60,816 bases of DNA from a virus. Location of the stretch: IMG/VR virus record IMGVR_UViG_3300007775_000010, positions 1-60,816 of that record. The stretch is one strand, 5' to 3'. A program made the position numbers and the translations under genes. The notes under the pieces were generated by a model that saw only the letters and a list, made by a program, of their open reading frames with translations, made no database searches and was not told where the DNA came from. This document shows, piece after piece, positions 3,080 to 57,987 of the stretch (position 1 is its first letter; each line of letters starts with the position of its first letter).

Positions 3080-4221
3080 GACTCGCGCTCATCTCCGATC
3101 AACACTTCGACGCGTCGTCCCGCTGGGAAGAGATGCTGCGAATCGCGGGCTGGATCGCCGGCGACATTGCCCAGAGGGAGGTTGACCTCGTTGTGCTCGG
3201 CGGGGATCTGTTCGAGCGCCGGCCCGTCCCGCTCGAAACGAAAGCCGCCGCGCAATGGCTCATCTCCCTGGCGGAGACCTCCCCTGTCGTGGGTGTGTAC
3301 GGAAACCACGACGTACCGGAGTCGCTCGCCGTGATGAACCGACTTGAGGCGCGGCACCCTATCACGATCTACGACCGTCCAGCCGTACACTACGCGGCCG
3401 GCGCCGCGATCGCATGCTTGCCGTGGCCTCGCAAGGCCCACCTACTCGCCGCCGTTGGGGCCAACGCGGACGCGGACGCCGTGGCGCACGGCGCTCTGCA
3501 GACGGTGTTGCTCGGGCTCGGCGATGAACTGGAGCGCTTCGAAGGCCCGCGCCTTTTCGTCGGCCACGTGATGATGCGCGGTTCGAAGGTATCCACCGGG
3601 CAGCCGCTCGCACCGGGGGCGGACTTCGAGATTGGTCTCGAAGACCTGGCGCTCGCCCGCGCGTATTTCTACGGGCTCGGTCACATTCACATGGGGCCCG
3701 GTAACGAGTGGAAGGTCGGTGATGCTCCGGCTGTCTTTCCTGGTAGCCCCAGGCGCACCAGCTACGGAGAGACGGAGCCCAAGGGATACGTGATCGCGGA
3801 AGTCGACGAGCACGGTCCCATCGGATGGGAGCGCATCGAAACACCGTGCACCCCGATGTGTCTGCTCGAGTACCATTGGGATGGCGAGGGTTTCTGGGGC
3901 AGCGATGTGCCGGCCGCGTTGGTCGAGCCCGGTGCCGAGGTCCGATATCGATACAGTGTTGCGTCGGAGCACCGGGAGTCAGCGAAGGCCGCCGCGCTGC
4001 AGCTTCGCGATGACCTGATCCGCGATTGCGGGGTCGCTTCGGTCAAGATAGAGGAGAGGGTAACGGCCACCAAACGAGCGCGCGCCCCCGAGCTCGCGCA
4101 GGCGGCGACGCTGCCCGACAAATTGCAGGCGCTGTGGCGCAGTCGCAACGACGTGCCCGACGACGAGCGGGCCGCACGATTGATCGGCAAGGTTCACACA
4201 CTCGAGGAGCAGAATGTCTAG
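3076..4221 (+). CDS. sbcD: SbcD/Mre11-like exonuclease subunit (metallophosphoesterase)
   Basis: This 381-residue calcineurin-like phosphoesterase has all metal-binding motifs in order: SDQH (7-10), GGDLF (42-46), GNHD (76-79), GH (163-164) and GHIH (202-205). It is the nuclease half of the Mre11/Rad50 (SbcD/SbcC) pair; T4 gp47 is the phage counterpart. With the ATPase encoded just downstream it should process double-strand ends for recombination-dependent replication. It overlaps the HNH gene by four bases and the next gene by eight. Its length fits the family. Confidence 0.9.
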   Translation: MRLALISDQHFDASSRWEEMLRIAGWIAGDIAQREVDLVVLGGDLFERRPVPLETKAAAQWLISLAETSPVVGVYGNHDVPESLAVMNRLEARHPITIYDRPAVHYAAGAAIACLPWPRKAHLLAAVGANADADAVAHGALQTVLLGLGDELERFEGPRLFVGHVMMRGSKVSTGQPLAPGADFEIGLEDLALARAYFYGLGHIHMGPGNEWKVGDAPAVFPGSPRRTSYGETEPKGYVIAEVDEHGPIGWERIETPCTPMCLLEYHWDGEGFWGSDVPAALVEPGAEVRYRYSVASEHRESAKAAALQLRDDLIRDCGVASVKIEERVTATKRARAPELAQAATLPDKLQALWRSRNDVPDDERAARLIGKVHTLEEQNV

Positions 4222-4612
4222 AACGACGCACACCTACGCGAAGCTGGAAGTCACCGAGGCGACGTGGCAGGAGATTGCCGACAAGCTGCGGGCCGCGGGA
4301 TACGATCATGCCTTCCACGACGGTGTGATCGACATGCATGGAATCGGGCTGCAGCAGCTCGAGCGCCATCCGGAGCAGCTCTCCGAGGTATCGTACCGAC
4401 TGGGTACCGAGCAGACGCTTCGCAAGCTCGCGAAGCTGGTCGACAACGCGACGCCGCCGGGCCTCGGGTTCGTCCTGGTGCTGGCGACGTTCGGCGAGCC
4501 AGATGAGTCGCACCAGCACATGGCTTACATGTCGAGCATCCAACGCGACACCGCGTCCAGGATGCTGCGCGAGCTCCTCGGTAAGTGGGAGCAGGAAGGC
4601 ACCGTGCGATGA
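4214..4612 (+). CDS. Hypothetical protein between sbcD and sbcC
   Basis: This 132-residue protein starts inside the end of sbcD and overlaps the sbcC start (ATGA). It appears to be a small alpha/beta protein with no recognised motif. Lying between the two subunits of a nuclease complex and coupled to both, it may be an accessory to them, but that rests on position only. Confidence 0.7.
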   Translation: MSRTTHTYAKLEVTEATWQEIADKLRAAGYDHAFHDGVIDMHGIGLQQLERHPEQLSEVSYRLGTEQTLRKLAKLVDNATPPGLGFVLVLATFGEPDESHQHMAYMSSIQRDTASRMLRELLGKWEQEGTVR

Positions 4613-9223: not shown

Positions 9224-10197
9224 TGCGTGCAGCTCTCAATCCACTCTAGGATCGGCCCCGGGATGTAGGTATAGACGCCCGGCCATCCCTCGCGATCGCA
9301 TCCCCGCCCGAACGATGTGATCCCGATCTGCTCCCAGCGCGGAGGAAGCGTGATGCCGTTCCACGCGAGCAGCGGGCCCCCGCTATCACCTTGGCACGAG
9401 TCCCCTGTGCCTTGCCCTCCGGCGCACACCATGCGCGGAGTGAACTCCGGGTAGCGCCCCTGGCATTGCACGTCGGTCCAGGTCATGGGCACGTTGACGA
9501 ACAGCAGGTGCTGCGTTGTCTGCCCTCCCTCGGAAGTGCGGCCCCACCCGGCTACCGTCGCGTCGTTGGTCTGTTTTCCTGTGGCGAGCCGCACGGTCGG
9601 CACACCAGCATCGGACGAGAGCCGAACGACGCTTACGTCCCAGTCGTGCGGCGTCACGTCGTACAGCGGATGGATTCGCGTCTCGATGGTCCGGACCGCT
9701 CGGGCGTCTCCGAGGTAGGTGGATCCGACGAGCACGTAGTCGCCCGGGTCGACCAGGCAATGTGCAGCCGTGAGGACCCATCGATCTTTGTAGACGGATC
9801 CCGTGCAGTACTGCTGCCGCAACGGAGTAGTCAGCGCTGCGGCGAACGGGAATGATCGCTCACCCGTCTGCGGAGCCGGCGTGCCCTGGACGATCCGAGT
9901 CTTGCGCTTGCCGGACCCGCGATCCTTCGGAGTCACGAACTGGCACGGTTTGATCGGATGCGCGTCCGCGCTTGCCTCCGGGGCTGGCTCGTTGCCCGAG
10001 TCCTCGGTCGCAGTCGGAGCGGGGCCGATCGGTGGCGGAGCTTCCGGCGGCTGGAACTGCGAGCAGCACGGGCCGACCATCGCCACGATCGTGGCAATGA
10101 GCGCGCTCAGAGAGATGGACATCACGACCTTTCCGCCACGAGAGAGCGACAGCACGGTCGGCGGTTTCCCTGGAGGGGTTCCGTTGGTGACCATCAT
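9220..10197 (-). CDS. Membrane-anchored trypsin-like serine protease (S1), probable zymogen
   Basis: This 325-residue protein has a hydrophobic anchor at about 28-46, a Pro/Glu-rich linker to about 95, then a full chymotrypsin-fold domain. The activation site is Arg101 followed by IVQG. The catalytic residues are His146 (TAAHC), Asp187 (DWDVSVV) and Ser272 (GDSGGP). Asp266, six residues before the serine, and the small residues in the pocket predict cleavage after Arg or Lys. Cysteines are spaced for disulfides, so the domain acts outside the cytoplasm. The gene is translationally coupled to the holin-like gene upstream (ATGA). Such proteases are abundant in myxobacteria but unusual in phage lysis cassettes. 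Confidence 0.85.
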   Translation of the reverse strand: MMVTNGTPPGKPPTVLSLSRGGKVVMSISLSALIATIVAMVGPCCSQFQPPEAPPPIGPAPTATEDSGNEPAPEASADAHPIKPCQFVTPKDRGSGKRKTRIVQGTPAPQTGERSFPFAAALTTPLRQQYCTGSVYKDRWVLTAAHCLVDPGDYVLVGSTYLGDARAVRTIETRIHPLYDVTPHDWDVSVVRLSSDAGVPTVRLATGKQTNDATVAGWGRTSEGGQTTQHLLFVNVPMTWTDVQCQGRYPEFTPRMVCAGGQGTGDSCQGDSGGPLLAWNGITLPPRWEQIGITSFGRGCDREGWPGVYTYIPGPILEWIESCTQ

Positions 10198-10703
10198 TCC
10201 CCACTCGATGCGCGCGCGTCGCGCTCGATGGCGCGCTCCTCACCCTTCAGCAAAGCGTCGACGATCGGCTTCACCCACGGACGGATCTGCTCGAAACTGT
10301 TACAGAAAGCGGTCTGCGCCTGCGCGATGTCGATCTTCTTCTTCTCCGCGTAGGATCGTGCGCACGCCTGCTGTGCGAGAAACTCGGCGGTGTCTCCTGG
10401 GTTTTGCAGCGCGGTTTGCACGGCTGGGTTTTGCGCAAGCGCGGAGCCGCAACCGGTGGTGGACAGCGCCAACCCGACCGAGATCATCGCGAGTAGCGCA
10501 GTCGGCGATACGCCGCTGCGGACCAGCTCTCCGGTCGCGACGAACACCGCAACCTCGATACCCACACGTGTTAACTCGGTGATGGCGTCAACCTGACCAT
10601 CGGTCAACGCGACGTCGAAGACGCGCAGCAGCGCAATGACAGCGGAAACCAACGAGAGGAACAGAACGGCGAAACGGACGGGCTCTTTTCGGATCCAGGA
10701 CAT
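10194..10703 (-). CDS. Holin-like membrane protein with lipoprotein-like C-terminal part
   Basis: This 169-residue protein starts with EPVR and a hydrophobic helix (about 10-28), then a second one (45-60), in the pattern of small phage holin-like proteins. A third hydrophobic stretch (68-82) ends in STTGC with Cys85, which resembles a lipoprotein signal preceded by an internal Met73. The rest is helical and polar. It could be a holin fused to an outer-membrane spanin-like lipoprotein, or two products made from two starts. It is the first gene after a late promoter and heads the lysis cassette. Confidence 0.6.
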   Translation of the reverse strand: MSWIRKEPVRFAVLFLSLVSAVIALLRVFDVALTDGQVDAITELTRVGIEVAVFVATGELVRSGVSPTALLAMISVGLALSTTGCGSALAQNPAVQTALQNPGDTAEFLAQQACARSYAEKKKIDIAQAQTAFCNSFEQIRPWVKPIVDALLKGEERAIERDARASSGE

Positions 10704-10740
10704 GCCGGCGAGGCTACGGATCCTCGGTTGCCTCGGCGAA
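10704..10740 (-). promoter_or_regulatory. Late promoter copy 1 (lysis cassette)
   Basis: Reading leftward, TTCGCC at 10740-10735 is followed after exactly 16 nt by CGTAGC (10718-10713), then CTCGCCGGC and the ATG of the holin-like gene. Nine bases separate the -10-like box from the start codon. It is one of five copies with the same boxes and the same spacing. There is no Shine-Dalgarno sequence, so the mRNA is probably leaderless. Confidence 0.65.
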
Positions 10741-10751
10741 AAGCCGGCCCG

Positions 10752-11063
10752 TCAGAGGTCGGGGGTCGGCTGCACGATCCCCTTGTCGGCCGTGCTCTTC
10801 TGTCCACTCTGCTCGACGAGCTCCAGCTCGTATTGCAGCGGCGTGGTGATGATCGCTGTATCCGCCTGAGGCAAGGTCAGCAACGCGTGCGCCGCGTCCA
10901 CGACGGTGATCCCGTTGCCGATGTCGCGGTTCAGCACCTCGACTCCGTTGTCGAGGCGCTTCGCTCGCCACACGAGTGACTGCGCCACGGTCAGGTCTAC
11001 CGGAGGCGTGCGCGAGGCGAACGCGAGATCGAAATAGCAGTCGTCTCCCTGGTCCACGCGCAT
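10752..11063 (-). CDS. Small tail-associated protein
   Basis: This 103-residue protein reads like the small beta-rich proteins found beside phage tail fibre genes, with VDLTVAQSLVWRAKR followed by DIGNGITVVDAAHALLTL and a closing strand YELELV. The pattern resembles N-terminal domains of baseplate upper proteins (BppU-like). It follows the fibre gene with a 3-nt gap and is probably structural. Confidence 0.5.
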   Translation of the reverse strand: MRVDQGDDCYFDLAFASRTPPVDLTVAQSLVWRAKRLDNGVEVLNRDIGNGITVVDAAHALLTLPQADTAIITTPLQYELELVEQSGQKSTADKGIVQPTPDL

Positions 11064-11066
11064 CGC

Positions 11067-12971
11067 TCAATGCCTCCTGGTGATGGTGGCCCGCGCTCCC
11101 GGTCGACGCGAAATGATCGCGGTCGCGCCGGGCCTACGGGTGATGATGGCCCTCGCAGCGACGGGCAGGATTACCGCTCCGATGGTGCTCCCAGCCGTGG
11201 GCTCCGGCGTTATTGGGCCGGGCACGAGGGCGAGAATGCTCTCGGCTGTCGGAGCAACCACGAGGGACTGCAGCGCCAGAGCGAGCACCGATGGCGCCGT
11301 GGGCTCGGGAATGAGCGGCGAAAACTCCAGCCCGAGCGCTTCGACCGTCGAGGGAGCTGTCGGATCGCCGGTGAGTGGACCCGGCACCAGGGCGAGCGCG
11401 GCCTCTGCCACCTCGTCTGCTGCGCAGGGACCGGTCACCATCGAGACCACGCCCGGCGCCGTAGGCTCTGGCGCCAGCGCGTCGAATTGGATCTCGGGCC
11501 CGACCACTGTCGACGGAGCAGTAGGTTCGGGTGTGAGAGCACCCGGCACGAGGGCGACGATGCTCTCGGTGGTCTCCTCGGGCACGAGCGCTCCCGGAGC
11601 CACACCGAGCACCGACGCCGCCACCTCGTCTGCGGCGAACGCCTGAGGCTTGAGCGGCAATAGCGAGGCTGCCACAGGATCGGCCGCAACTGGGCCGCAG
11701 ACGGCCGACAGGACGCTCGGGGCCGTCGGATCGCCCGTCAGCCCGCCGAACGTGAGCGAGCCGCTCTCGATGGTGGACGGGGCGGTTTCTTCGGGGGTGA
11801 GCGGTCCGGGCACGAGGCTCACGGCAGACTCGAGGGTTCCATCGGGCGAGAGCGGCCCGGGCACCGCGTGGGCAACGGCTGGCGCAATGGTCTCGGCGAG
11901 CAGTGGCCCGAGCGCAGCGGCAACAGTCGACGGAGCGGTTGCCTCCGCCGTAGTCGGGCCCGGTACCGCGGCAATGGTCGACGGCGCGGTGCTCTCCGGA
12001 GTGAGCGGATCGAACGTCAGGCCCGAGACGATCGACGACGGCGCGGTCGGTTCCGGCGTGAGCGGACCCGCCACGAGCGCCGCCACAGACGGCCCGGTAG
12101 CCTCGGGGACGAGCGACCCCGGTACCGCCGACATGACGCTCGGTGCAGTGGCTTCCGGTGTGAGCGCCCCGAGATTGATCGCAGGGACGATCGAAGACGG
12201 CGCCGTGGCCTCAGGGGTGAGGGGACCGGGTACGAGGGCGACCGCGCTTTCGGCGGTTGGATCCTCGGCCAGCGCACCCGGAACGGCGTAGACAACGGAG
12301 GGAGCGGTCGCCTCAGGGGTGAGCGCGTCGAAGACCAGATCGGCCACACCGCTCGCGGCATCGATCGACGCGCGCCATGTCGACCAGTACCAGTTACCGC
12401 ACGATCCGGTGGTCGAGGAGAGAGTGCCCGTGTCCTGGTCCAGATCGCGCAAGTGCGTGTTGGCGTTCGAATGCGTGAAGTTGATCGATTCACGCAACGT
12501 CGACGAGTCGCCCGGCGCACCGAGGGTATCATCGCCCACGATGAACTCGACGACCTTCGATCCGTCCGCCGCTACGTCGATGGCCTGCAGGGTGTATGTG
12601 GTTCCGAGGCCGTTGTTCTTGTCCCAGTCGCCGAGCGCTCCTGAGTCGTATGCGACGACGACCAGGGTGTCGATGAACGAGTTGACGAACGTGAAGTCCA
12701 GGTTCGATGGCGCGCTAGCGGCCGAGGCATAGACGGCGGCGAACACGTGGTACCCTCGGCCCCCGCTCCCACCCGGGCCGTCCTGCTGGTCTGTGACCAA
12801 CGACCAGTTGCCATCCGGTAGGGTGACGTTCCCTTGATTGTCCGTGAACGTATCCGCATGGAATAGGTGCGCGAAGATGGGCCCATCATCCGAAAGCGTC
12901 GGCGTCGGGATCGTCAGGCTCGCATCGAATATCGAATAGAGCTGGTTCGAGTCGTTGTACGCGACGGCCAC
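11067..12971 (-). CDS. Tail fibre protein with 22 degenerate short repeats
   Basis: This 634-residue protein has a beta-rich N-terminal domain (about 1-215). It is followed by some 22 tandem units of 17-20 residues with consensus LTPExTAPSxVxAVPGP (about 217-605). The end contains three short basic units of the type ITRRPGA. Regular units rich in Pro, Thr and Ala suggest a long fibrous shaft, and the basic tip may contact the cell surface. It starts at GTG. The place among tail genes and the repetitive form point to a fibre or host-contact protein. Confidence 0.6.
   Translation of the reverse strand: MAVAYNDSNQLYSIFDASLTIPTPTLSDDGPIFAHLFHADTFTDNQGNVTLPDGNWSLVTDQQDGPGGSGGRGYHVFAAVYASAASAPSNLDFTFVNSFIDTLVVVAYDSGALGDWDKNNGLGTTYTLQAIDVAADGSKVVEFIVGDDTLGAPGDSSTLRESINFTHSNANTHLRDLDQDTGTLSSTTGSCGNWYWSTWRASIDAASGVADLVFDALTPEATAPSVVYAVPGALAEDPTAESAVALVPGPLTPEATAPSSIVPAINLGALTPEATAPSVMSAVPGSLVPEATGPSVAALVAGPLTPEPTAPSSIVSGLTFDPLTPESTAPSTIAAVPGPTTAEATAPSTVAAALGPLLAETIAPAVAHAVPGPLSPDGTLESAVSLVPGPLTPEETAPSTIESGSLTFGGLTGDPTAPSVLSAVCGPVAADPVAASLLPLKPQAFAADEVAASVLGVAPGALVPEETTESIVALVPGALTPEPTAPSTVVGPEIQFDALAPEPTAPGVVSMVTGPCAADEVAEAALALVPGPLTGDPTAPSTVEALGLEFSPLIPEPTAPSVLALALQSLVVAPTAESILALVPGPITPEPTAGSTIGAVILPVAARAIITRRPGATAIISRRPGARATITRRH
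11157..12325 (-). repeat. Coding tandem repeats of the fibre shaft
   Basis: The DNA encodes about 22 units of 51-60 bp built on LTPExTAPS. Units differ at several positions, so the array is old or diversified rather than freshly duplicated. Some units have three extra residues, always in the second half. Confidence 0.8.
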
Positions 12972-35231: not shown

Positions 35232-36284
35232 TCAGGTCTTGACGTTCTTGATCAGCCCGCCGCACACGTCGCTGATCATCTTCACGTCTTCGGCGTGGCC
35301 CGCTACGAGCATGGTGCTGCCCTCGAGACCTTCCTCCTCGACCTGATATTCGCGACTGGTGTAGCCGGTGCCGCTCTCACCGCGACGGCGGAACGTCTGA
35401 ATCGTACGCACCGACATTGGGTTTCCGTCCGCACCAGGCGGGTTGCAGGTGAGCACCACGTCATCACCGAGAACGAAGTCGAGCAGTCCCGTGCTCTCGT
35501 TCAGCTGCTTCTCTGGCGTGACGTGGAACGGAGGGAATCCCGGGATGACGAAGTCGAGCTGCATCTGGGCGCCCGCTCCCTTGACGGCCTGCGCCTGCGG
35601 CGCGTTGTCGCCGAGCATCTGCCGCATGTGGTCGCGCACCGACGGGTGCCGCAAGAAGATGTGCGCCCCCACGGGTGCCATCCAAATGTCCGTGACGGGC
35701 TGCGCGGAGGCCTCGATCCGCGTCTCCAGGTCGAGGATCGGGTCGCTGTTCAGCGGGTCATCCCACGCCGTCGCAAGCGTCACGCGGTTGGCTGCGTTCC
35801 AGCTGGCGGTGTTCCGCAAGATCGTCCACACCCGGGACTCACGGTCGAGACCGAGGCCACGCGCTACGATCTGCCCGCTTGCCTGCTTGAGGTCGTAGTT
35901 TGCCTGCGCCGCCGTCACCTTGGGGATCAAGCTGCCGAGCTGGCGCTCGAGCACCGTGTAGTCGAGCAGCGTGGACTCCGGGTCGATCTGCCGCACCCGG
36001 CTGCGCCGGGACCCTTCGACGTTCACGGTCTTGAACATGTTGTTCAGGCCGAAAAACCGGAACTTGTCGGTGTCCTTGTCAACCAGGAAGACGGGCGCCA
36101 CCTCGTCGGCCCGCAGCCCGAAGGGAGAGAACCCGGCGATATAGGTGTCCAGCTCCTCCTGGATCGTGACGTCCGAGGGAGACAGCGCCAGGGTGATGGT
36201 CTCGCCCGCGCGCCCGATGCCGGGCTGGTCCGCCGCGAGCATCACGCTCATGGTGGCTGCCTGTGCGATTCGTCGAAGTTTCAT
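35232..36284 (-). CDS. Major capsid protein
   Basis: This 350-residue protein follows the decoration gene and has features of HK97-fold capsid proteins: DKFRFFGLNNMFKT, DRESRVWTIL, WDDPLNSDPILDLETRIEA, then IFLRHPSVRDHM. A ribosome site GGGAGC precedes the ATG. The place between protease/decoration and connector genes agrees. No separate scaffold gene is seen, which fits the protease/scaffold arrangement upstream. Confidence 0.85.
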   Translation of the reverse strand: MKLRRIAQAATMSVMLAADQPGIGRAGETITLALSPSDVTIQEELDTYIAGFSPFGLRADEVAPVFLVDKDTDKFRFFGLNNMFKTVNVEGSRRSRVRQIDPESTLLDYTVLERQLGSLIPKVTAAQANYDLKQASGQIVARGLGLDRESRVWTILRNTASWNAANRVTLATAWDDPLNSDPILDLETRIEASAQPVTDIWMAPVGAHIFLRHPSVRDHMRQMLGDNAPQAQAVKGAGAQMQLDFVIPGFPPFHVTPEKQLNESTGLLDFVLGDDVVLTCNPPGADGNPMSVRTIQTFRRRGESGTGYTSREYQVEEEGLEGSTMLVAGHAEDVKMISDVCGGLIKNVKT

Positions 36285-36755: not shown

Positions 36756-38432
36756 CTAGGCGGACAGTTGCGTGTTGCTCGTGAACACCACGCCGCTCTC
36801 TCGGAGCGCGCGCAGCTCTCGGAAAGCGTCGTCGCGACCGAGCCCCTGGTTTTGGCTGCAGAGGTAGGACACGGCCCGCTCGGTGTCGTTGCGGCCCGCG
36901 TGCTTGCTGACGTCGACCACCTTGCCGCCGCCGGTGGCTCGGTTCGCGTCGTTGCCGAGCGCGAGCGTTCGCGTCTCGGAAGCCGCCGGTGGCGTGAACT
37001 GCGCGCCATCGGGGCCGGCAACGAGCTGCGTGAGCAGGTGAGCGTGCTTCGCCTCGGGCACGCCGTAGTGCGTGAGGAACGCCTTGCGACCGGTTTCCCT
37101 GGCATTCGCGAGCAGCTTGCCCCGGTCGGCCACACCCTCGGGCACCTTCGCGGACTCCTCCCGGATGAGCACAGCGCGATGCGAGGACAACGCGACGGAA
37201 GCCGACTTGTCGAAGCCCTTGGAGGTCAGCGCGGCGTTGACGTCCATCTCGGCCTGCGCCTCGTCGACCTTGGTCTGTTGCGCCAGGGCGGCGTCGAGCT
37301 CCGCCTTGACCGAGTCAAGCTTGCTCGCCGCGTCTCGCAGTTGGGCCACGTTCTCGAGGGCGGCCGGGGCGTCCTTCACACCCAGAGCACCGAGGATGCT
37401 CTGCAGGTCACCGCCGGCGGATGCCAACTCCTGCACAGCGCTCTCGACGTCCGCATCCTCCTGCAGCATCCGGACTGAAAGCGTCACGCGGCTTTTGGTG
37501 AGGATTGCGGCCAGTTTCTTTCCGAGGTCACTGAGTCCCATGGCTTCTCCGGGTGGTGCTTTCGACTGCGTCGACTGATCGCCCTCTGCCAGCCCCCCGG
37601 CAGCCTTGCGAATTTCCGCGCCTAGCTCTTCGAGGGTCGAAGTGACGGGCAGACCGAAGGTCGTACGCAGGGCGGCGATGAGGTCGTCGACCTCGAGACC
37701 CTGCGGGGGGATGCCAGCTCCGCTCGCCCAGCCGAGCACCTTCTCGACCTCGGCCATTGTGGCGGCCGTGTCGGCGGTCGCCGGCAAGCCGAGCAGCTCG
37801 CGCGTCTGCTCCAGCGCCTTCTCGGTGGATCCGGCGGGGTAGCCATAGAACTGGGAGAGCCCCCTGAGCCCCATCCGGGCAGCGGCGATCGGAATGGGCG
37901 TCAGCTCAGTGAGGAACGGCTGATTGGTGAACGCGATGCTGGTGATCTTCGGGCCAATATCGTTGCCGGAGACCCCATCGATGGCCTTTGGGTTGAAGGC
38001 GATCGAGACGTACTGATACTCCTCGTCGGCGATCTGCTGACGGACCTTCTTTCCGAGCTTCGTAAGCGCCCAGAGCTGCGCTTTGCCGTCGCTACTCTGG
38101 CGCACCTCGAGGTCGCGAGCCCACGCTGGGGCAGGCGTTCCGCTCTCGGGAATCGCCCCGAGGAACGCAGCCATTTCGCTGGCGTGCTCGTAGTCATACG
38201 GCACGACGGGAGATGAGCCGTGGCCGTCGTCGCCGAGCTTGAAGCGCGCATCCGCCTTGAAGTTGCGGACCATGGTGGCGAACACATCCGCGTTGAGCGC
38301 GAAGGGACCGGACTTGTGGCCTCGATACTCGCCCTCGGTGGCCACGTGGATCCACTTGACCTCGGGCACCTCGGCGCCGACCGAGGCCTCCTCGAGGCGG
38401 ATCGACGCGGCAAGCAGGAACGGGCGAAGCAT
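36756..38432 (-). CDS. Capsid protease with scaffold domain (Mu gpI-like)
   Basis: This 558-residue protein has an N-terminal protease part with IHVATEGEYRGH, FATMVRNFKA, VPYDYEHASEM and EYQYVSIAFNPKAID, which is the Mu gpI pattern. A long Ala/Glu-rich helical scaffold region (about 290-480) follows, then a C-terminal piece. In Mu the same gene also makes the scaffold from an internal start. It precedes the decoration and capsid genes. Confidence 0.85.
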   Translation of the reverse strand: MLRPFLLAASIRLEEASVGAEVPEVKWIHVATEGEYRGHKSGPFALNADVFATMVRNFKADARFKLGDDGHGSSPVVPYDYEHASEMAAFLGAIPESGTPAPAWARDLEVRQSSDGKAQLWALTKLGKKVRQQIADEEYQYVSIAFNPKAIDGVSGNDIGPKITSIAFTNQPFLTELTPIPIAAARMGLRGLSQFYGYPAGSTEKALEQTRELLGLPATADTAATMAEVEKVLGWASGAGIPPQGLEVDDLIAALRTTFGLPVTSTLEELGAEIRKAAGGLAEGDQSTQSKAPPGEAMGLSDLGKKLAAILTKSRVTLSVRMLQEDADVESAVQELASAGGDLQSILGALGVKDAPAALENVAQLRDAASKLDSVKAELDAALAQQTKVDEAQAEMDVNAALTSKGFDKSASVALSSHRAVLIREESAKVPEGVADRGKLLANARETGRKAFLTHYGVPEAKHAHLLTQLVAGPDGAQFTPPAASETRTLALGNDANRATGGGKVVDVSKHAGRNDTERAVSYLCSQNQGLGRDDAFRELRALRESGVVFTSNTQLSA

Positions 38433-39044: not shown

Positions 39045-39293
39045 TCAGGACTGTTCGACGACGATCGTGGAGCTACGCGAGAAGTAGGCCGGGAGGGCCT
39101 CGAAGAAGCGCTTGCCGTCGTCTGGACCGACCAACCCACGCCTATCACGCACGACGCGCTGCTCGAGCATTCTGCGCAGCTGACCGGAGCCCCGCTCCCA
39201 CTTGATGGAGACCCTGTCTCCCTTCAGTTCGAGCGTTGCCTCGAGGCGGCGATCCGAGCCGTCCTGGTTCTGCGATGAGATGGTGAGTGTCAC
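39045..39293 (-). CDS. Small hypothetical protein after the MuF gene
   Basis: This 82-residue protein starts at a GTG in a GTGA overlap with the MuF-kinase gene. The first half looks like a beta meander (LEATLELKGDRVSIKW), the second is Arg-rich. Its coupling to the MuF-kinase gene makes it worth testing as a cognate inhibitor, but the sequence itself gives no sign of that. Confidence 0.55.
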   Translation of the reverse strand: MTLTISSQNQDGSDRRLEATLELKGDRVSIKWERGSGQLRRMLEQRVVRDRRGLVGPDDGKRFFEALPAYFSRSSTIVVEQS

Positions 39294-41179
39294 TTGATCA
39301 GCTTGTCGATGGTTTGGAGCTCTGCCGAGTCTATCAGCTCACCCGGAGCGCTGAACGACAGCTCGATTGTATGAGCGATGTCAGGGTCTTCCACCTTCTC
39401 GAGGACATCCCGAGTGAGCCTACCCGTCTGCTGCAGGTGACGGGCCCGTACCAGGGCGGCCCGCCGAGCTGGCTTGGGTATGCCCCGGCGCTCCAGGATG
39501 CGATTCAGATCCTTGAGCTTCAGACCTCGCACGCGCTTGAGGATGTCGCTGTCTAGCCCGACCAGGTCGGCGCCGGGAACGCTCCGAAACCCCTCCGGGA
39601 ACTGGAGCGGGAAAGCGAGCCCGTTGTCGATGGCAATGCAGCGCCCATCCGGCCGGATCATGGCATTACCCAGGTGGCGATCGCAGTTGGCGGAAATGAA
39701 GTCGAGCGCCGTGGTGCGGTTGGCCGTCTTGGCCTCGGCGACGGTGCCAAGTGGTGATTTCAGGAACGTCTTCGCGTCGCTGGCGAACTCCTGAAAGCTG
39801 CCGACGCCCATGCCGGAGCCAGATAGGTCCGCGGCGATGGTCGTCGGCACAACCGTCGCTCCCCCCAGCGCGCGATCCAGGTCATAGGCCGCTGCCTCGC
39901 GCTTGTAGAACCCTCCCTCCTCCCACGTGTCACCCAAGCCCGTCTCGCCGGAGGCGGGCTTGTAAACTGCCCTGATCGTCTTTCCGTCGGCTGTCTCCAG
40001 CTCGACCAGCTGGGTCTGATTGATGCCGCCTCGGAGCCGCTGCTGCGCCCCTCGCACTTTCGCCGACTCCATCTGCTGCGCCAGGCCTGGGGCGGGACGC
40101 TTGGGAGCTGGGCGGTTGCGCGGTCTTCTCGGCGGTGGGATGCGTGCGGGAGGGCTTGGCTGTTGAGCGACTGAACTGGCTGGACGACTCGGTACGCTGA
40201 ACGACCTACGGCCACCGCCGCTCCACCCCGGATCGGGCAGGGGTGTCGGCATGTCCTCACCGCGTACGATCGTGAGCCCCTTTCGCATGCGCAGCGACCG
40301 CACGCGGCATCTGCAATTAAATCCACTGGGCGGATAGGCTCGCCGCCACCAAGGGTCGTCTGCTCGCAGTACCTTGCGATGGGCGCCCTTGTGCGTGACG
40401 CGGCTCCGACTGTCGGCGACCGAGATCCACTGCCACAGCGGCCGCAGCGCGAGCACCTGGGGCTGGGTTTGCTGCTGGTAGCGCCCGCCGTTGTAGGCCG
40501 ACATGGCGCCAGTCCTGAACACGGTCTCGACGTGACTCGGGTTGCGCGGAGTCCACCCGGCGGACTCGAGGCGCTCGTTGACCGCCTTGCGGAAGTCCCG
40601 CAGCTCCGCCCCCTTCGCGACCTGGCGCACGAGCTCCCGCTTGACGGTGTCGACCACGCGCTTGCTCGCGGCGCCGGCGACCGTGAAGGCCTGCGTCCGG
40701 GCCTCGTCGGTCATCGCGTCGAACACGTCGCGCGTGACGGGTGAGCGCCGCTCGAAGCTCGCGATAGCGTCGTCGATCCCCCGGTGAGTGAACCTCGGCT
40801 GCGTATCGAGCAGGATCGGGTGATAGCGTGCTGACACGTACGCACCGAACCGGGCCGGAGCGACGAGGTCGTCCTCCTCGGCCTCGTAGTCCGCATCGAG
40901 GGCACCGAGCATGCCCCCGTGCAGGCTCGCGTCGCCGAAGGCCTGGGCGAACGCGTCGCGGTCGAACCGCTTCGCCGCGCGGTCTATCGCGCGCTTGATG
41001 GCCGCCGGATCGTCGAGGTCCTCGATTGCCTCGAGCAGCTCATCGACCCACGAGCGAACAGCCCGGGTTGCCTTGCGCACCCCGCGCTCGACGATGGCGT
41101 CAGGGGAGCCGAACACCGTGTCGGGCTGGGCTGCGAGCAGGATCCGCCCGCCGCAGTCAGAGCACGACGCGGCCGGCAT
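39290..41179 (-). CDS. MuF head morphogenesis protein fused to a PI3/4K-like kinase domain
   Basis: This 629-residue protein has three parts. The N-terminus carries CSDCGG. The MuF domain ends near residue 296 with SAYNGGRYQQQTQ, WQWISVADSRSRVTHKGAHR and PPSGFNCRCRVRS, the classic MuF motifs of Mu gp30/SPP1 gp7. A Pro/Arg-rich linker (about 325-368) follows. The C-terminal domain (about 375-545) has the layout of atypical lipid/protein kinases: AVYKP (Lys407), an Glu428 helix, the catalytic loop DRHLGN (500-505) and IDNG (517-520) as metal-binding motif. MuF proteins enter the virion, so the kinase may be delivered into the cell. The gene overlaps portal by 23 bases. Confidence 0.8.
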   Translation of the reverse strand: MPAASCSDCGGRILLAAQPDTVFGSPDAIVERGVRKATRAVRSWVDELLEAIEDLDDPAAIKRAIDRAAKRFDRDAFAQAFGDASLHGGMLGALDADYEAEEDDLVAPARFGAYVSARYHPILLDTQPRFTHRGIDDAIASFERRSPVTRDVFDAMTDEARTQAFTVAGAASKRVVDTVKRELVRQVAKGAELRDFRKAVNERLESAGWTPRNPSHVETVFRTGAMSAYNGGRYQQQTQPQVLALRPLWQWISVADSRSRVTHKGAHRKVLRADDPWWRRAYPPSGFNCRCRVRSLRMRKGLTIVRGEDMPTPLPDPGWSGGGRRSFSVPSRPASSVAQQPSPPARIPPPRRPRNRPAPKRPAPGLAQQMESAKVRGAQQRLRGGINQTQLVELETADGKTIRAVYKPASGETGLGDTWEEGGFYKREAAAYDLDRALGGATVVPTTIAADLSGSGMGVGSFQEFASDAKTFLKSPLGTVAEAKTANRTTALDFISANCDRHLGNAMIRPDGRCIAIDNGLAFPLQFPEGFRSVPGADLVGLDSDILKRVRGLKLKDLNRILERRGIPKPARRAALVRARHLQQTGRLTRDVLEKVEDPDIAHTIELSFSAPGELIDSAELQTIDKLIK

Positions 41180-43106
41180 CGTCCATCGCCCGCCACGGGG
41201 CGCCCGCCTTGGCCCTCACGACGCCGCAGTCGCGGCACTTGCGCTTGCGCCCATGCCCGCAGCTGTCTGCCTTCGAGCTGTTGAGCGCGCTGGCGACCTC
41301 CGCTCGCTCCTCGATGTCGGGCGGGGGCTCCGCCGGCATCTGCCGCGAGTCGCCGATCGCCTTCCAGGCCACCGCCCACTTCGGCTCGCCGGTGGCCTCG
41401 TCGAGCTCCACGTCGCGCGATCGCTCCACTCCGCACATGGGGCAGCGGTTGGGCCGGCCGTGCTCGCACCGCTCGATCCCGAGCTCGGTCATCTTGCGGG
41501 CGAGGTCCCGCGCCTCCTCGGGCGTGTTCGGCTCGGGATCGCCCGTGGGGGGCATCTGCGAGGGGGGCTCCTCGATGCCCGGGAGGGACTGCTGTGCGGG
41601 TCCTGGTGGCGCTGGCGTGCCTTCGGGCAGGTTCACCTCGGCGGTGGGCTCGGGGCGGAGCTCTCCCGGCTGCGGAGCCTTGCCGGGCGGGTAGACGACC
41701 GCGATTCTCGGAGCCGGAGCCGGTTGTCCCATGGGCGCCTCGGGGTGCACTTGCACGAGGATCGCCTCTCCCTCGTTCGGCGGGCGGAAGCCCGAGCGCT
41801 CTCGGGCGTCATCGACGCCGACCGCGAGCCCGATACTCGCCGCCTTCTCGATCGTGTCGAGTTCTTCCTTTGGATCCTTGCGCTGCTCAGGCTCGATGAA
41901 AAACCGGGGGGCGTTGATGAGCTCGTGCGGGCCGCGGTTCACGGCGATGATCGCGTCGACGAGGTAGTCCTCGATGCTCTCCGCGCAGTCGGCGCCGTCG
42001 CCCTCGATTATGAGGTCCTCCTCGGTCTTGTGCACCTCGGATTGGTTCGAGCCGAGGCCCGCCGGCTGGGCGTCGGTGGTGCTGGTGGAGCCGAGTACGA
42101 GCTTGGAGATCGTGAGCTCCGCGTGCTCGATGGTGTCCTTGTGCACCTCGCCCTTTGCGTCAGGCGAGACCACCGTGGCTCTGAGCCCGCGAGCGAGTCG
42201 CGCCGTGTTCGTCGCTCCGAGCGCCTGCAGCGCGTCGAACGACTCCTCGAGGTCCTCGTCGTTTGGGTTCTCCTGGTCCTGCTCGAGGATGCGCCAGGGC
42301 TTGCCGAACAGCTCCATCAGGATCAGCCGCTCGCGAACGCCGAACCGGCTGAAGAAAGTCCAGTACAGGATCCGCGGGCAGAGCCCCTCGCGCTCAGGGT
42401 AGTCGCTGAAGAGACGCGGCTTCCGCACAACGAACTTGAAGGGGACTCCGCGCTCGATGGGATAGCCGGCGGTGTCCGAGAAGTCTCCACCCCACTGGTC
42501 CGCATCAACGATGCGCAAGTCGCGCTGTTGCCCGAACGAGAGCCGCCGAGGATGCATCCAGTGGAGGTCCACCGCCCGGTAGGGCCACGGGCCGCCGACG
42601 AACTGCCACTCGACCTCGAGCGCCGAGCGGCCGTCGAAGCTGGCCCATGCCAGATCTCGGAGCCGCGAGCGAAAGCGCTTGAGCCCCCGCATCTGGCTCT
42701 CGACCTCGCGTTGGTAGTCGCGGGCCTTGTCTCGATCGACGCCGGCGCCGCTGGCCGGTTCGGTGCGCCAGGGGAGGGAGGTCACCCGGTTGAGGCGCTT
42801 CTGCAGCACCGAGTTCGCGTGGCCGCTGAGGCTGATCGACTCGCGCCCGAGGTCCGCCATGGGGCGCATGAACCCGTTGTTCGCCGACCGGATCGTGTAG
42901 TCGATGCGGCTGAGGTCGAGGCTCCGGCCGTAGTGGGTCCGGTAGTTCTCGATGCGCTTCAGGTGCGAGTGCTGCACCGTCACGAGCGCCTGCCGGTCGA
43001 GCGCCTGCGGGTGCTTCGGGGGGAGTGCGGTCAGGGTGCGGGCCTGCGTGTCGCGGCGCTGGATCGTCTCGAGCTGCGTTCGTCGCCGCGGGATGTATCG
43101 GTGCAC
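41157..43106 (-). CDS. Portal protein (Mu gp29, DUF935) with two C-terminal zinc-binding repeats
   Basis: This 649-residue protein shows the DUF935 portal pattern: WRTEPAS, RSALEVEW, WMHPRRLSF, a region around FFSRFGVRERLILMELFGKPW, then LVLGSTSTTD. Mu gp29 is shorter. The extra C-terminus is Pro-rich and ends with two repeats CEHGRPNRCPMCG (547-559) and CGHGRKRKCRDCG (616-628), each followed by a Trp-containing strand. They are probably zinc knuckles. It starts at GTG after a late promoter. Confidence 0.85.
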   Translation of the reverse strand: MHRYIPRRRTQLETIQRRDTQARTLTALPPKHPQALDRQALVTVQHSHLKRIENYRTHYGRSLDLSRIDYTIRSANNGFMRPMADLGRESISLSGHANSVLQKRLNRVTSLPWRTEPASGAGVDRDKARDYQREVESQMRGLKRFRSRLRDLAWASFDGRSALEVEWQFVGGPWPYRAVDLHWMHPRRLSFGQQRDLRIVDADQWGGDFSDTAGYPIERGVPFKFVVRKPRLFSDYPEREGLCPRILYWTFFSRFGVRERLILMELFGKPWRILEQDQENPNDEDLEESFDALQALGATNTARLARGLRATVVSPDAKGEVHKDTIEHAELTISKLVLGSTSTTDAQPAGLGSNQSEVHKTEEDLIIEGDGADCAESIEDYLVDAIIAVNRGPHELINAPRFFIEPEQRKDPKEELDTIEKAASIGLAVGVDDARERSGFRPPNEGEAILVQVHPEAPMGQPAPAPRIAVVYPPGKAPQPGELRPEPTAEVNLPEGTPAPPGPAQQSLPGIEEPPSQMPPTGDPEPNTPEEARDLARKMTELGIERCEHGRPNRCPMCGVERSRDVELDEATGEPKWAVAWKAIGDSRQMPAEPPPDIEERAEVASALNSSKADSCGHGRKRKCRDCGVVRAKAGAPWRAMDDAGRVVL

Positions 43107-50636: not shown

Positions 50637-51416
50637 CTACTCCGCCGCCTGGGTGCCCGGGATGGAGGTTTGCGCCGCGACCCACTCGAACCCAGTGTCG
50701 ACCTGCTCGGAGAGCTCGGCGATCACCTCCTCGAGGGTGTGGATCTCCTCGTTGAAGATCTTGTTGGCGCGGGTCTTCTCTTTGACCTTCTTCTGCAGCT
50801 TCCGCTCTTGCTTCGCGAGCTCGCGACCGCGCTTCGTGATGTCTTCCTCCGAGAGTTCGCGCTGCACCTGACCGGTGCGGTCGGGCCCTTCCTTCTCCTC
50901 GGGTGGTTCCGAGCGGCCCTTCTTCTTGCCGCTTCGCGTCTTGGGACTGGGGGTGGGGCTCTTCTTTGCCTTCTTGGCTGCCATGTCTCTCTCCTCGGTT
51001 GTGGCGGGCGTGCCGCCGGTCATCGGTGGGGTGCAGTCGTCTCCGTAGACGCCGTCACCGGGTGCGGCATCGGGGTCCTCGTCGCGGTAGCGGGCGAGAC
51101 ATCGCTCCGTCTCGCCCATTGGCTGGTAGGTGCCGGGAGCGGGCGAAGGCTTGCGGGGTATCTTCCGCGGGGGAGTGCCGCGCTCACACCACGGGCAGCT
51201 CAGTGGCTTCTCCGCGGCGACGCCGTGCGCCTCGCAGTAGTACGGGCAGCGCTTCGTTGGCCAGTTGGCGAGCTGCACCACACCGGCGCCAGACCATCTC
51301 GGGTCCATGTAGTAGAGGACCGGCTTCGGGCAGCACTGCCCATTGGTTGGGGCCTCGAGGCACTTGTCGCAGCCCGGCTCCATGCCGCGTCGGATGGCGT
51401 ACTCGGCTCCGAACAT
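50637..51416 (-). CDS. Cysteine-rich protein with internal start; possible two-product gene
   Basis: The 259-residue frame has an N-terminal Cys-rich half (CDKC, CC, CPYYC, CPWC) and a Lys-rich C-terminal half with a coiled coil. A second ATG at 50984 is preceded by AGGAGAGAGAC, a better ribosome site than that of the first start, so a separate 115-residue protein may be made. No family is recognised. Confidence 0.6.
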   Translation of the reverse strand: MFGAEYAIRRGMEPGCDKCLEAPTNGQCCPKPVLYYMDPRWSGAGVVQLANWPTKRCPYYCEAHGVAAEKPLSCPWCERGTPPRKIPRKPSPAPGTYQPMGETERCLARYRDEDPDAAPGDGVYGDDCTPPMTGGTPATTEERDMAAKKAKKSPTPSPKTRSGKKKGRSEPPEEKEGPDRTGQVQRELSEEDITKRGRELAKQERKLQKKVKEKTRANKIFNEEIHTLEEVIAELSEQVDTGFEWVAAQTSIPGTQAAE

Positions 51417-52192
51417 CAGCCGCGGCCCCGGTCAGGTTGACAGAACAGATCCCACGTTCGCGGGAACCGGTCGGCGACCATTTCACCAACAGCGCTAGCG
51501 TACTGACGGATCTCCCACTGCGCGTTGGAAGCCATGCGCAGCGTCAGGAACGCCAGCCAGTTGCGCAGGTTCGCGCTCGCGCGCATCCGTGAGTATCGCC
51601 CCACTGGTAATAGGATTCGTGCGAGCTCCTTTGGAACCCCATCATCGAGCGCTGCTTCGTATCCGGTCTGAAGCGCGTCGTAGCCCACAATGAGAGCTTC
51701 TCGAAAGCGATCGGCTGCCCTAACTGTCAGCTCTCGAGCTCCCGCCGCGGTGCCAGCCTGCTTCGTGAGATGCCCGCCGCCGGCCAGGAGTCGCTCGATC
51801 GTGGGCACGTAGTTGAGATTCGGTAGCGGAGCGTAGCGAGCGCTCATCTCGTTGTAGCTCTGCGTCCGGTGCCGATGCCATTCCCGGAAGACGAAGATCG
51901 GCGCTTGCACCTCGATGACAAGGCCGGCCATCTCGAACGGGGTCGCGTGGTTGTTCCGGTACAGGAATGCGAGGAGCTTCTCGTCGCCCGGCACCTTCAC
52001 GGTTTCGCTCTCGGTATGACGCTCGTCGTCACAACGACCGTCCGTCTTGCCGCAAGAGCCGCAGGCATACTTCGGCCCCCAACCCTCGAACCCCTTCTGC
52101 GTCGACATGCGGGCGGCCTCGATGATCCGCTCATCGGAGCCCCAAGACTCGACCAGCTCGACGTAACCGTGATCCAGGACGTCGATTCTCAC
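51416..52192 (-). CDS. thyX: FAD-dependent thymidylate synthase
   Basis: This 258-residue protein has the ThyX motif RHRTQSYNEMSARY (107-120) and a C-terminal flavin-binding region. It makes dTMP from dUMP, supplying phage DNA synthesis. An insertion near residue 44 (CGSCGKTDGRC) looks like a zinc-binding loop and is unusual for ThyX. Confidence 0.92.
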   Translation of the reverse strand: MRIDVLDHGYVELVESWGSDERIIEAARMSTQKGFEGWGPKYACGSCGKTDGRCDDERHTESETVKVPGDEKLLAFLYRNNHATPFEMAGLVIEVQAPIFVFREWHRHRTQSYNEMSARYAPLPNLNYVPTIERLLAGGGHLTKQAGTAAGARELTVRAADRFREALIVGYDALQTGYEAALDDGVPKELARILLPVGRYSRMRASANLRNWLAFLTLRMASNAQWEIRQYASAVGEMVADRFPRTWDLFCQPDRGRG

Positions 52193-55808: not shown

Positions 55809-56138
55809 TCAGGCCTCTGTCCCCGTTCGCGACTCCGGCGGCACGTCGCCGAGCAGTGAGTCGAGGTATGCGAGATAGCCGTCCCGAGGCAGCGCCAGCG
55901 GGATCCACGCGGGTTGCCGGCTGCCCTCGATCCAGTCGCGCACGACGCGCTCATCGACGCCCACGTGCCGCGCAGCCTCGCGGCGGCTCCACCGGAGCAC
56001 TGACAGCGCGTGCACCAGTGCCAGGCCGGCACGGGCCTTGCGAGAGGACCGCAGCGATGCTTGGCACTTGGCTACGGATGGACCCCTAAGGGTGGCGATG
56101 CGGTCGCGGAGGTCGGCGATTTCGGGAGCGATGCTCAC
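55809..56138 (-). CDS. Small helix-turn-helix protein
   Basis: This 109-residue protein has a helix-turn-helix (RREAARHVGVDERVVRDWIEGSRQPAW), similar to Cro/XRE proteins. It starts at GTG in a GTGA overlap with the ParB-like gene. It is probably an early transcription regulator. Confidence 0.6.
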   Translation of the reverse strand: MSIAPEIADLRDRIATLRGPSVAKCQASLRSSRKARAGLALVHALSVLRWSRREAARHVGVDERVVRDWIEGSRQPAWIPLALPRDGYLAYLDSLLGDVPPESRTGTEA

Positions 56139-57022
56139 TTCAGTTTACTCGCCTCGGTTACGCCATGGTTGTAGATCGACTTCAGAAACTCCACGCCCGC
56201 CGCGACGTCCGTCGTCTTGGCGAAGTTCTTTATCGACTTGATCTGTCCGGTAGCCCTGACAGGGTCGGAGTTCTTGCCGAGCTTCCTCTGAAGCTTCTTT
56301 TCGTCGAAGCCGTCGCCATACTTCACGATGAACGCGGCCATGCTTCGGAGCATCAGCCCGTCGAAAGCGTTGCGGTCTCTGCCCCAGGAGCCAACGAGAT
56401 TCCTCAGGGTCCTGATCAACAGAACCCTGCCCGGGTGAGGGAATCGAGGCAGGCCGCTGACACCGCGGACGCAGCCGCTGTGGATCTGCACCAGGGCCTT
56501 GACCGCAGACACGCTGCCGTTCGAGTGACGAAACCCGAACGTGAGCCCGAAGCCTTCAAGGATAGAAACGATGTCGACGGTCGCCGGATTCCCCGCGGCG
56601 AAACTGATCCGAAACGTCTCGACCGCGCTCGGGTTCTTCTTCTTCCCGTTGAGGTCGAGGAACATCTGAGCTTCCTGTTCGAGCGTCAGGTCCCGCCAAA
56701 CCTTGAACGGGACAGGGATGTCGCCCATGCCAGCGATGATGGCGGCAGCGCAGCGGTGCTGAGAGTCCATCACGTAGTACCCATCAGCGCGAGCCGAAAC
56801 GGAGCCGACGCCGAACAGCGCTGGCTGGTATTCCGAAGCGATGTCAGCGGCATGCTTTGGCCGAAAGGCCTGTTGAACATGGTGATCAACCAGCACCTCG
56901 CTTGGTTTGAGCATCAAGATCTCAGGTTGGCCGTCTCGGAGCGGCCTTATTTCAGCGACTGCTTCAGAGCGTCGCGAAGACGCCGAATCCTTGACAAGCT
57001 TTGCGATAGACTGTGGACGCAT
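56135..57022 (-). CDS. ParB-like nuclease-domain protein B (DUF6551-like)
   Basis: This 295-residue protein starts at ATG 57022 with AAGGAAG upstream and overlaps the end of the ParB-like gene before it by 76 bases. It has VDHHVQQAFR, then YYVMDSQHRCAAAI (DSQHR at 86-90), the fold core of ParB/Srx-type domains, where GxHRxxA is usual. It may bind DNA or nucleotides. Confidence 0.7.
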   Translation of the reverse strand: MRPQSIAKLVKDSASSRRSEAVAEIRPLRDGQPEILMLKPSEVLVDHHVQQAFRPKHAADIASEYQPALFGVGSVSARADGYYVMDSQHRCAAAIIAGMGDIPVPFKVWRDLTLEQEAQMFLDLNGKKKNPSAVETFRISFAAGNPATVDIVSILEGFGLTFGFRHSNGSVSAVKALVQIHSGCVRGVSGLPRFPHPGRVLLIRTLRNLVGSWGRDRNAFDGLMLRSMAAFIVKYGDGFDEKKLQRKLGKNSDPVRATGQIKSIKNFAKTTDVAAGVEFLKSIYNHGVTEASKLK

Positions 57023-57987
57023 CTGCTGACTTCCTTCTTGCTTGCTGAAACACCGTTCTCGCGAACCAGATCGGCGAGCTGTTCGACCATAAGCGTCGCC
57101 CCCTCGAGACCAGCGGCGATATGCTCCGCCTCCGACCATGCCTTCACCTTTGGCGCGTTCGCGGCGATCCCTATGTCCGACTTCAGCTTCGATACGGTCG
57201 AAGACTGCAGGCCGAGGCGCTGGGATATCTCGGTCGTGCCGAGCCCAGCCTCGTGCAGCGCACGGACATCGGCAGCGCGTGCCTCGTGGTCTACGCGCGG
57301 CTTTCGTTTTCGCTTCTCCTCTGGAGCAGCAGGAAGCCGATGCTGACCGTCAAGAATCGTGTATTCGACTGGCCCTTCCGCCTTCGCCGCGGCCACCGCT
57401 TCGGATACCGAGCGCTGAGACATACCAGTCGCTTCCGCGGCTTTCGCCTGGGTCGCGCCGTCCTCCACCAACTGAACCGCCTTTCGCTTCTGTTCGGGCG
57501 AGAGCTTTACGCGGGCGTCTGGCTTAGCATCATTATAACTCGGTATATTGCTGCTGAACCACTTGGACACCGTCGGCTGTTTGACCCCCAGCTGATCCGC
57601 AATCCGCTGCTGCGTGTTCTTCCTCGGGTCCTCTGCCCGCAGCTCGAACGCGATCGCTCGCTTGAGCTCCAGCGCCTCCGCCTTCTGGGCCTCCGACATG
57701 TTGCGTCGTCCGGTCGCGCTCCGCAGAACCATCGCGCGCTTCTCCGGCTCGGTCTTGCCGCCGATGACACGACACGCGACGCCGTCACCGAGAATGTCGT
57801 ACCGGTTGTGTCCGTCGAGGATGTTGCCGCCTTCATCGATCAACACCGGTGCCTGCTGCCCGTCGTCGCGCAGGCTGGCCTCGAGGGAGGCCCGCTCGTC
57901 GCTCGAGAGCGGCGGCACGAGATGCGCGTACGGCGTCTTCAGCTTTCGCGGGGCGCCCGGCCGCATCTGAACGACATCCGCGCTCAC
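56947..57987 (-). CDS. ParB-like protein A with several helix-turn-helix motifs
   Basis: This 346-residue protein starts at GTG. The ParB N-domain includes LEASLRDDGQQAPVLID and ILDGHNRYDIL. Three helix-turn-helix units follow: TQQRIADQLGVKQPTVSKW, TQAKAAEATGMSQRSVSEA and GTTEISQRLGLQSSTVSKL. Such proteins partition plasmids or regulate genes. No ParA partner is seen. Confidence 0.75.
   Translation of the reverse strand: MSADVVQMRPGAPRKLKTPYAHLVPPLSSDERASLEASLRDDGQQAPVLIDEGGNILDGHNRYDILGDGVACRVIGGKTEPEKRAMVLRSATGRRNMSEAQKAEALELKRAIAFELRAEDPRKNTQQRIADQLGVKQPTVSKWFSSNIPSYNDAKPDARVKLSPEQKRKAVQLVEDGATQAKAAEATGMSQRSVSEAVAAAKAEGPVEYTILDGQHRLPAAPEEKRKRKPRVDHEARAADVRALHEAGLGTTEISQRLGLQSSTVSKLKSDIGIAANAPKVKAWSEAEHIAAGLEGATLMVEQLADLVRENGVSASKKEVSRCVHSLSQSLSRIRRLRDALKQSLK

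Follow-up and report, generated by a model that had tools for sequence, protein, structure and literature searches.

A viral contig of 60,816 nucleotides (IMG/VR record IMGVR_UViG_3300007775_000010, analysed over its full length and called the window here) encodes a MuF minor head protein that ends in a PI3/4K-like kinase domain, with a gene for a small partner protein directly downstream. The locus would be a two-gene kinase-partner cassette inside the head-gene module of a tailed phage. Such cassettes occur again in many viruses that are only distantly related to one another, and could give particles a route for carrying a kinase into the cell. The reading that we prefer, and to which we give close to an even chance, is that the kinase is a packaged effector kept in check by its cognate partner, much as a toxin is by its immunity protein. 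This reading was drawn by analogy with packaged MuF and portal enzymes and with the neutralisation of the MuF toxins Apk2 and Bxa.

The MuF head protein and its kinase domain

The kinase-bearing protein, P0001 (629 aa), is encoded on the minus strand at 39290..41179 with an ATG start. Its gene belongs to a head module on the same strand, with a Mu-type portal gene directly upstream (41157..43106; PF06074, E=1.9e-51) and genes for a Mu-like head maturation protease (36756..38432; PF10123, E=8.1e-15; phrog_328) and a major head protein (35232..36284; phrog_1005, E=1.8e-23) downstream. The MuF domain occupies residues 178-293 (40301..40648, minus; PF04233, E=1.2e-17), and residues 134-299 match phrog_220, minor head protein and DNA pilot, at E=2.8e-48. 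Family cut-offs were passed for both PF04233 (65.1 vs 29.6 bits) and TIGR01641 (46.3 vs 39.65 bits). Together with the position of the gene between portal and protease, these matches uphold the MuF identity that the original prediction had assigned from the letters alone. A proline-rich linker (about residues 300-370; 40070..40282, minus; 27% Pro over residues 310-372) leads to the kinase domain, which comprises residues from about 371 to 629 (39293..40069, minus). An identical protein is encoded on a second IMG/VR contig, IMGVR_UViG_3300026196_000006. Elsewhere the window encodes a calcineurin-like phosphoesterase and, next to it downstream, an SMC/AAA_23-type ATPase (3076-7053, plus), which resemble an SbcDC pair. 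It also carries genes for a ThyX-type thymidylate synthase (51416-52192, minus; PF02511, E=1.9e-40) and a DUF6551 protein (56135-57139, minus; E=6.7e-18).

The C-terminal region had been proposed to be PI3/4K-like, and the profile searches agree. P0001 matched Pfam PI3_PI4_kinase (PF00454) with E=4.7e-7 and 30.4 bits, above the cut-off of 27.1, and 63/64 of its relatives matched at E<=0.01. In the single P0001 sequence the PF00454 alignment covers only the short region 488-527. The NCBIfam model TIGR03843 (SCO1664 family) gave E=1.1e-15 for P0001 and matched 58/64 relatives at E<=0.01. Membership of this family was rejected, the score being 57.7 bits against a family cut-off of 172.4, and SCO1664 proteins, unlike P0001, are not fused to virion proteins. 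Neither HipA_C nor HipA_2 matched P0001; among the relatives HipA_2 was found weakly in 10/64 and HipA_C in 1/64. When a profile of the 64 relatives was compared with the PDB, PI4-kinases II-alpha and II-beta came first (E=2e-14 to 6e-13), followed by FAM20C, PI4K III-alpha and VPS34; the FAM20 matches include the pseudokinase FAM20A. The PI3/4K clan takes in protein kinases, and its name is no guide to a lipid substrate.

AlphaFold2 produced a confident model of the kinase domain (pLDDT 84.2, pTM 0.84), for which PI4K II-beta was the best Foldseek match in the PDB (E=1.6e-7). The structural check suggested with the original prediction thus came out kinase-like. The type II PI 4-kinases PI4K2A and PI4K2B are the best PDB matches by profile and by fold, and they share the motif IDNGLAFPL with P0001, in which LAFP directly follows IDNG. 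The likeness has limits: the TM-score is only 0.51, and the P0001 domain is viral, about 260 aa long, and part of a head protein. Kinase domains also occur in packaged or injected multi-domain phage proteins, the polyvalent proteins, where the C-terminal subdomain is lost and an insert separates the catalytic H and D (Iyer et al. 2017, PMC5512222). P0001, in contrast, keeps DRHxGN with no long insert, the PI3/4K profile and, in the predicted model, the helices after the metal motif. Assignment to the polyvalent-protein kinases was rejected on the helices and the absent insert.

The residues on which the kinase assignment had been built were all found where they were said to be. These are Lys407, the predicted ATP-binding lysine (39959..39961); Glu428, its predicted salt-bridge partner (39896..39898); the catalytic loop DRHLGN, residues 500-505 (39665..39682); and the metal-binding motif IDNG, residues 517-520 (39620..39631), which aligns with 'AIDNGLAFPL' of PI4K2A; all lie on the minus strand. 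Viral contigs were scanned at the DNA level for the motif DRHxGN...[IVLM]D[NH]G, a pattern that does not include K407 and E428. The scan generated 106 non-redundant ORFs, 104 of which match a profile iterated from the P0001 C-terminal region. The invariant columns in an alignment of 64 domains include K407 and E428; the invariance of DRHLGN comes partly from the selection. Across the pattern-found domains the K407 position is K in 147/149 and the E428 position is E in 154/160. Domains outside the pattern, found with a profile that was itself trained on pattern-found domains, kept D500 and N505 in 24/24 each, D518 in 23/23, K407 in 23/24 and E428 in 20/24. A predicted PI3/4K-like fold with an intact active site is therefore well supported by the profile matches, residue conservation, and AlphaFold2 and Foldseek results, and such a domain may carry out phosphotransfer.

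By profile and by model, the putative kinase match is far above chance level. The short PF00454 alignment in the single protein would be in keeping with a chance motif match or a misassembled fusion. This explanation is refuted by the recurrence of the fusion in 40 non-redundant MuF-kinase ORFs, by the identical protein on the second contig and by the confident fold. Kinase-fold proteins with changed chemistry are known, so the domain might instead perform another nucleotide transfer, such as the AMPylation of SelO, or ATP-dependent binding only. The profile match to FAM20 proteins, FAM20A among them, is compatible with this, but every phosphotransfer residue is present and conserved, and we consider a change of chemistry very improbable.

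Carriers of the kinase

A second scan with another Asp codon brought the total to 183 non-redundant kinase ORFs, of which 40 also encode MuF. MuF, linker and kinase follow in that order in 39/40 MuF carriers, with the kinase usually at the protein end, and the linkers of these relatives have a median of 9.5% Pro vs 3.7% in the kinase domains. Pfam analysis of 63 full-length carriers identified MuF in 18, minor capsid protein 2 in 1, and 5 matches to three portal families. The conflict domains zeta toxin (2), ADP-ribosyltransferase (1) and GNAT (1) were also found among them. These assignments support the predicted kinase as a recurrent C-terminal tail of virion proteins, namely MuF and portal.

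MuF is widespread in annotated phage genomes, which gave no match to the P0001 kinase apart from a distantly related stand-alone kinase in two Bacillus phages. A search with a two-sequence alignment recovered only the window's twin. A structure search of viral models led to HSTV-2 gp16 and HHTV-1 gp13, as well as to proteins from uncultured phages whose names refer to portal or head morphogenesis, and the kinase relationship of gp16 and gp13 was confirmed by a profile match. Both proteins (L137:10647-12119 and L138:9436-12738, respectively) come from cultured archaeal tailed viruses, are annotated as hypothetical, and share with P0001 a kinase-like domain encoded in a head or neck gene cluster; the gp13 gene is two genes before a gpF-like gene. 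They are distant from P0001, with gp13 reading DIHGGN and gp16 reading DSG at the metal motif. Two HExxH-like motifs (HEMAHD, HEMQHT) are also present in gp13. The open-licence literature yielded no virion proteomics for HSTV-2 or HHTV-1.

On a contig from a Thorarchaeota MAG (L128:4837-8932), two tandem kinase genes flank a partner, and a MuF ORF is found at 10022-11503; the contig is probably viral DNA binned with an Asgard archaeon. In L051:2853-5987 the MuF match falls into two pieces (residues 165-288 and 601-689) with ~310 intein-like residues between them, and one carrier of the set has an Intein_splicing match.

Effector fusions to MuF and portal have been described (Iyer et al., PMC5512222; Jamet et al., PMC5576092), and enzymes are known to be packaged as fusions to either protein (PMC5512222, PMC9503650). 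The MuF fusions reported include nucleases, alarmone synthetases, ADP-ribosyltransferases, zeta toxins, 2H and Nudix domains. A literature search limited to open-licence papers found neither the MuF-PI3/4K-like fusion nor the partner. We file the PI3/4K-like kinase on MuF and the partner family as new, and MuF-linked virion effectors as a known kind. The earlier statement that no described example was known agrees with this literature, although databases hold entries that give a domain name only; the 40 non-redundant MuF-kinase ORFs show that the architecture is not unique.

The partner protein and its pairing with the kinase

The partner is an 82-aa protein encoded on the minus strand at 39045..39293, with a GTG start that overlaps the P0001 stop by 4 nt (GTGA). 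The original prediction had described the kinase gene and missed this second half of the cassette. Most MuF-kinase genes have an ORF of 64-101 aa at the same downstream place. The AlphaFold2 model of the partner has a pLDDT of 92.4 and a pTM of 0.79. Neither Pfam nor PHROG contained a matching family, and no solved fold in the PDB matched the model (best E 0.34). Judged by sequence and model, the partner appears to be a family without earlier description.

A partner profile run over 20,785 ORFs gave 63 matches, with 62/63 downstream of a same-strand kinase domain, a pairing that is partly circular because the profile seeds were chosen at those positions. In a held-out test with 78 loci from the second scan, partner matches were downstream of the kinase in 25/25, and the partner was present for 18/18 top-listed kinases with scores of at least 142 bits. 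Among 50 whole viral records (2.83 Mb) there were 46 strong partner matches, and 46/46 had a same-strand kinase upstream, within 200 nt in 39/46 and within 700 nt in 43/46; by chance, kinase-downstream stretches of 700 nt make up 0.8% of the sequence. In the tandem arrays of L081, L096 and L123 most kinases have their own partner, and in L081 and L123 this is in some cases joined to the beginning of the following kinase.

Several more specific proposals for the partner were rejected. Kinase and partner covary (r=0.40, n=60), and in the MuF subset the value is 0.47 vs 0.50 for kinase and MuF; the covariation is significant, yet no better than that between kinase and MuF, and it was not accepted as proof of kinase-partner binding. 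A HipBST system (HipT kinase plus HipS-like antitoxin) was rejected, as 0/40 partners matched Couple_hipA (HipA N-terminal) at E<=1; none of the 50 fold matches listed for the partner model was a HipA fold. An S-G-S/T motif suggested that the partner might carry a phosphosite, but A, E, Q or G frequently occupies the position, which is therefore too poorly conserved for that role.

Possible roles of the cassette

As judged from gene order, the putative cassette lies at head-gene junctions, where the kinase ends one gene and the partner is either free or starts the next. This placement was deduced from L198 and L175, where a portal protein carries the kinase (E=3e-7 and 4e-8 to portals in the PDB; 426 and 486 phage records) and MuF carries the partner domain. 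The partner domain is the N-terminus of the MuF protein encoded by the next gene in L198, L175 and L152, and of a pyrophosphatase in the same position in L009. The next-gene protein of L148 (L148:5037-7397) likewise starts with the partner domain and also contains an XkdF-type head protease and a 2H phosphoesterase, the latter with a weak likeness (E=0.002) to the anti-CBASS protein Acb1.

Portals remain in the particle, therefore injection is not the sole reading of a kinase fused to one. The main rival of the effector reading is that the kinase acts in virion morphogenesis, phosphorylating portal, MuF, scaffold or protease and so timing head assembly or DNA packaging, with the partner serving to activate it, as an adaptor, or as its docking site on the following head protein. 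Such a role would be favoured by the fusions to portal and MuF in two lineages, by the fusion of the partner to a head protease, by the location of the cassette between head genes and by the origin of the partner from the same late operon. However, most tailed phages, Mu-like ones included, lack a domain of this kind and still assemble, and annotated phages have no such match except the stand-alone Bacillus phage kinase. The scattered occurrence of the kinase on unrelated carriers, among them long multi-domain proteins that also have conflict domains, is better explained by an effector than by a core assembly factor. We regard a role in assembly as unlikely, though serious enough to be weighed.

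The layout of the locus also invites comparison with the MuF polymorphic toxins. An ORF of <150 aa follows 89.4% of MuF toxin genes vs 25.5% of short MuF genes (Jamet et al. 2017, PMC5576092), and the toxins Bxa (PMC11699363) and Apk2 (PMC12226406) are inhibited by the products of small adjacent ORFs. P0001 shares with these toxins MuF at the start, an enzymatic domain at the end, a place beside the portal, and a small ORF directly downstream, which at 82 aa and with its 4-nt overlap is well within that size. It differs in its catalytic domain, a PI3/4K-like kinase, for which the search of open-licence papers gave no MuF example.

The partner is rare in cellular genomes, being found in 2/397, 1/380, 1/228 and 0/301 genomes of four sets, and 3/4 positive genomes are the set centres, i.e. 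the genomes from which each set was drawn. The remaining positive (L241:1-1311; G105 contig C2) has a partner-like ORF of 86 aa at 1051-1311, which lies 0.3 kb from a CRISPR array in which GTCGCCCCTCGTGCAGGGGCGTGGATTGAAAC occurs 12 times within the first 770 bases. No kinase was detected in the 2.4 Mb of this genome, which is possibly incomplete, the ORF lying at a contig end, and no partner was found in 35 other genomes of its class. The orphan partner beside the array would look like host-borne immunity, as a single case.

A classical toxin-immunity pair of a temperate phage would let lysogens inhibit competitors, with the kinase toxic alone and the partner as its specific immunity protein. 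It is suggested by the Bxa- and Apk2-like layout, the small downstream ORF and the orphan in a cellular genome. Against it, no integrase, transposase or lysogeny gene was found among the window ORFs scanned (part of the ORFs), the partner is rare in cellular genomes, and in several phages it is fused to virion proteins. We think such a pair improbable.

In the reading that we prefer, that of an injected effector, an active-looking kinase would be tethered through the proline-rich linker to the C-terminus of MuF, which would place a few kinase copies in the head. The partner would most likely bind the kinase and silence it during virion production. The kinase would enter the host with the DNA, perhaps after linker cleavage, and could phosphorylate host targets at once, and the partner would remain behind or drop off at injection. 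Several findings argue for this. The kinase-like fold has an active site whose catalytic residues are kept even in domains not selected for them, the domain is C-terminal on head proteins (MuF, portal, minor capsid protein 2), and some carriers match known conflict domains. Pairing with the partner is strict, mostly one partner per kinase in tandem arrays; small ORFs likewise follow MuF toxins and inhibit Bxa and Apk2; and beside a CRISPR array there is one orphan partner, in a cellular genome where no kinase was detected. Other findings count against it. In L198 and L175 a portal bears the kinase and the MuF N-terminus the partner domain, and a partner that forms part of a virion protein is no classical free immunity protein. 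The partner gene is within the late gene cluster, therefore a lysogen might not make it, and the scanned window ORFs held no integrase or transposase. The orphan is one case in a possibly incomplete genome, and the kinase covaries with the partner no more strongly than with MuF.

A broader version of this proposal is more doubtful. A mobile kinase-partner cassette may move among the head genes (MuF, portal, minor capsid) of many bacterial and archaeal tailed viruses and deliver at injection a kinase gated by an inhibitor of undescribed fold, and some cells may keep an orphan partner near CRISPR as protection.

If packaged and injected, P0001 would be an enzyme of PI3/4K type that virus particles deliver and that is active ahead of all phage gene expression; the T7 kinase, by contrast, is synthesised once infection is under way, and the T4 protein Alt is a transferase. 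The unannotated partner family offers, through two small genes, a direct handle on possible binding, inhibition and toxicity. The cassette further allows many long virion-module proteins that lack annotation in uncultivated viruses, archaeal ones included, to be recognised as probable kinases.

Some kinase-like proteins are found with other neighbors. Stand-alone proteins of 250-310 aa with DRHxGN, each followed by a gene for a conserved protein of ~275-310 aa, were seen in L020, L022, L031, L036, L043, L047 and L060, and the same arrangement in L062, L083, L084, L094, L102 and L106. From gene order this is a second, different putative kinase-partner pairing. More distant kinases in L041, L049, L059 and L100, and in L067 and L069, have small proteins of another kind downstream (~99-136 aa), which gave no match to the partner profile and are possibly other partner types.
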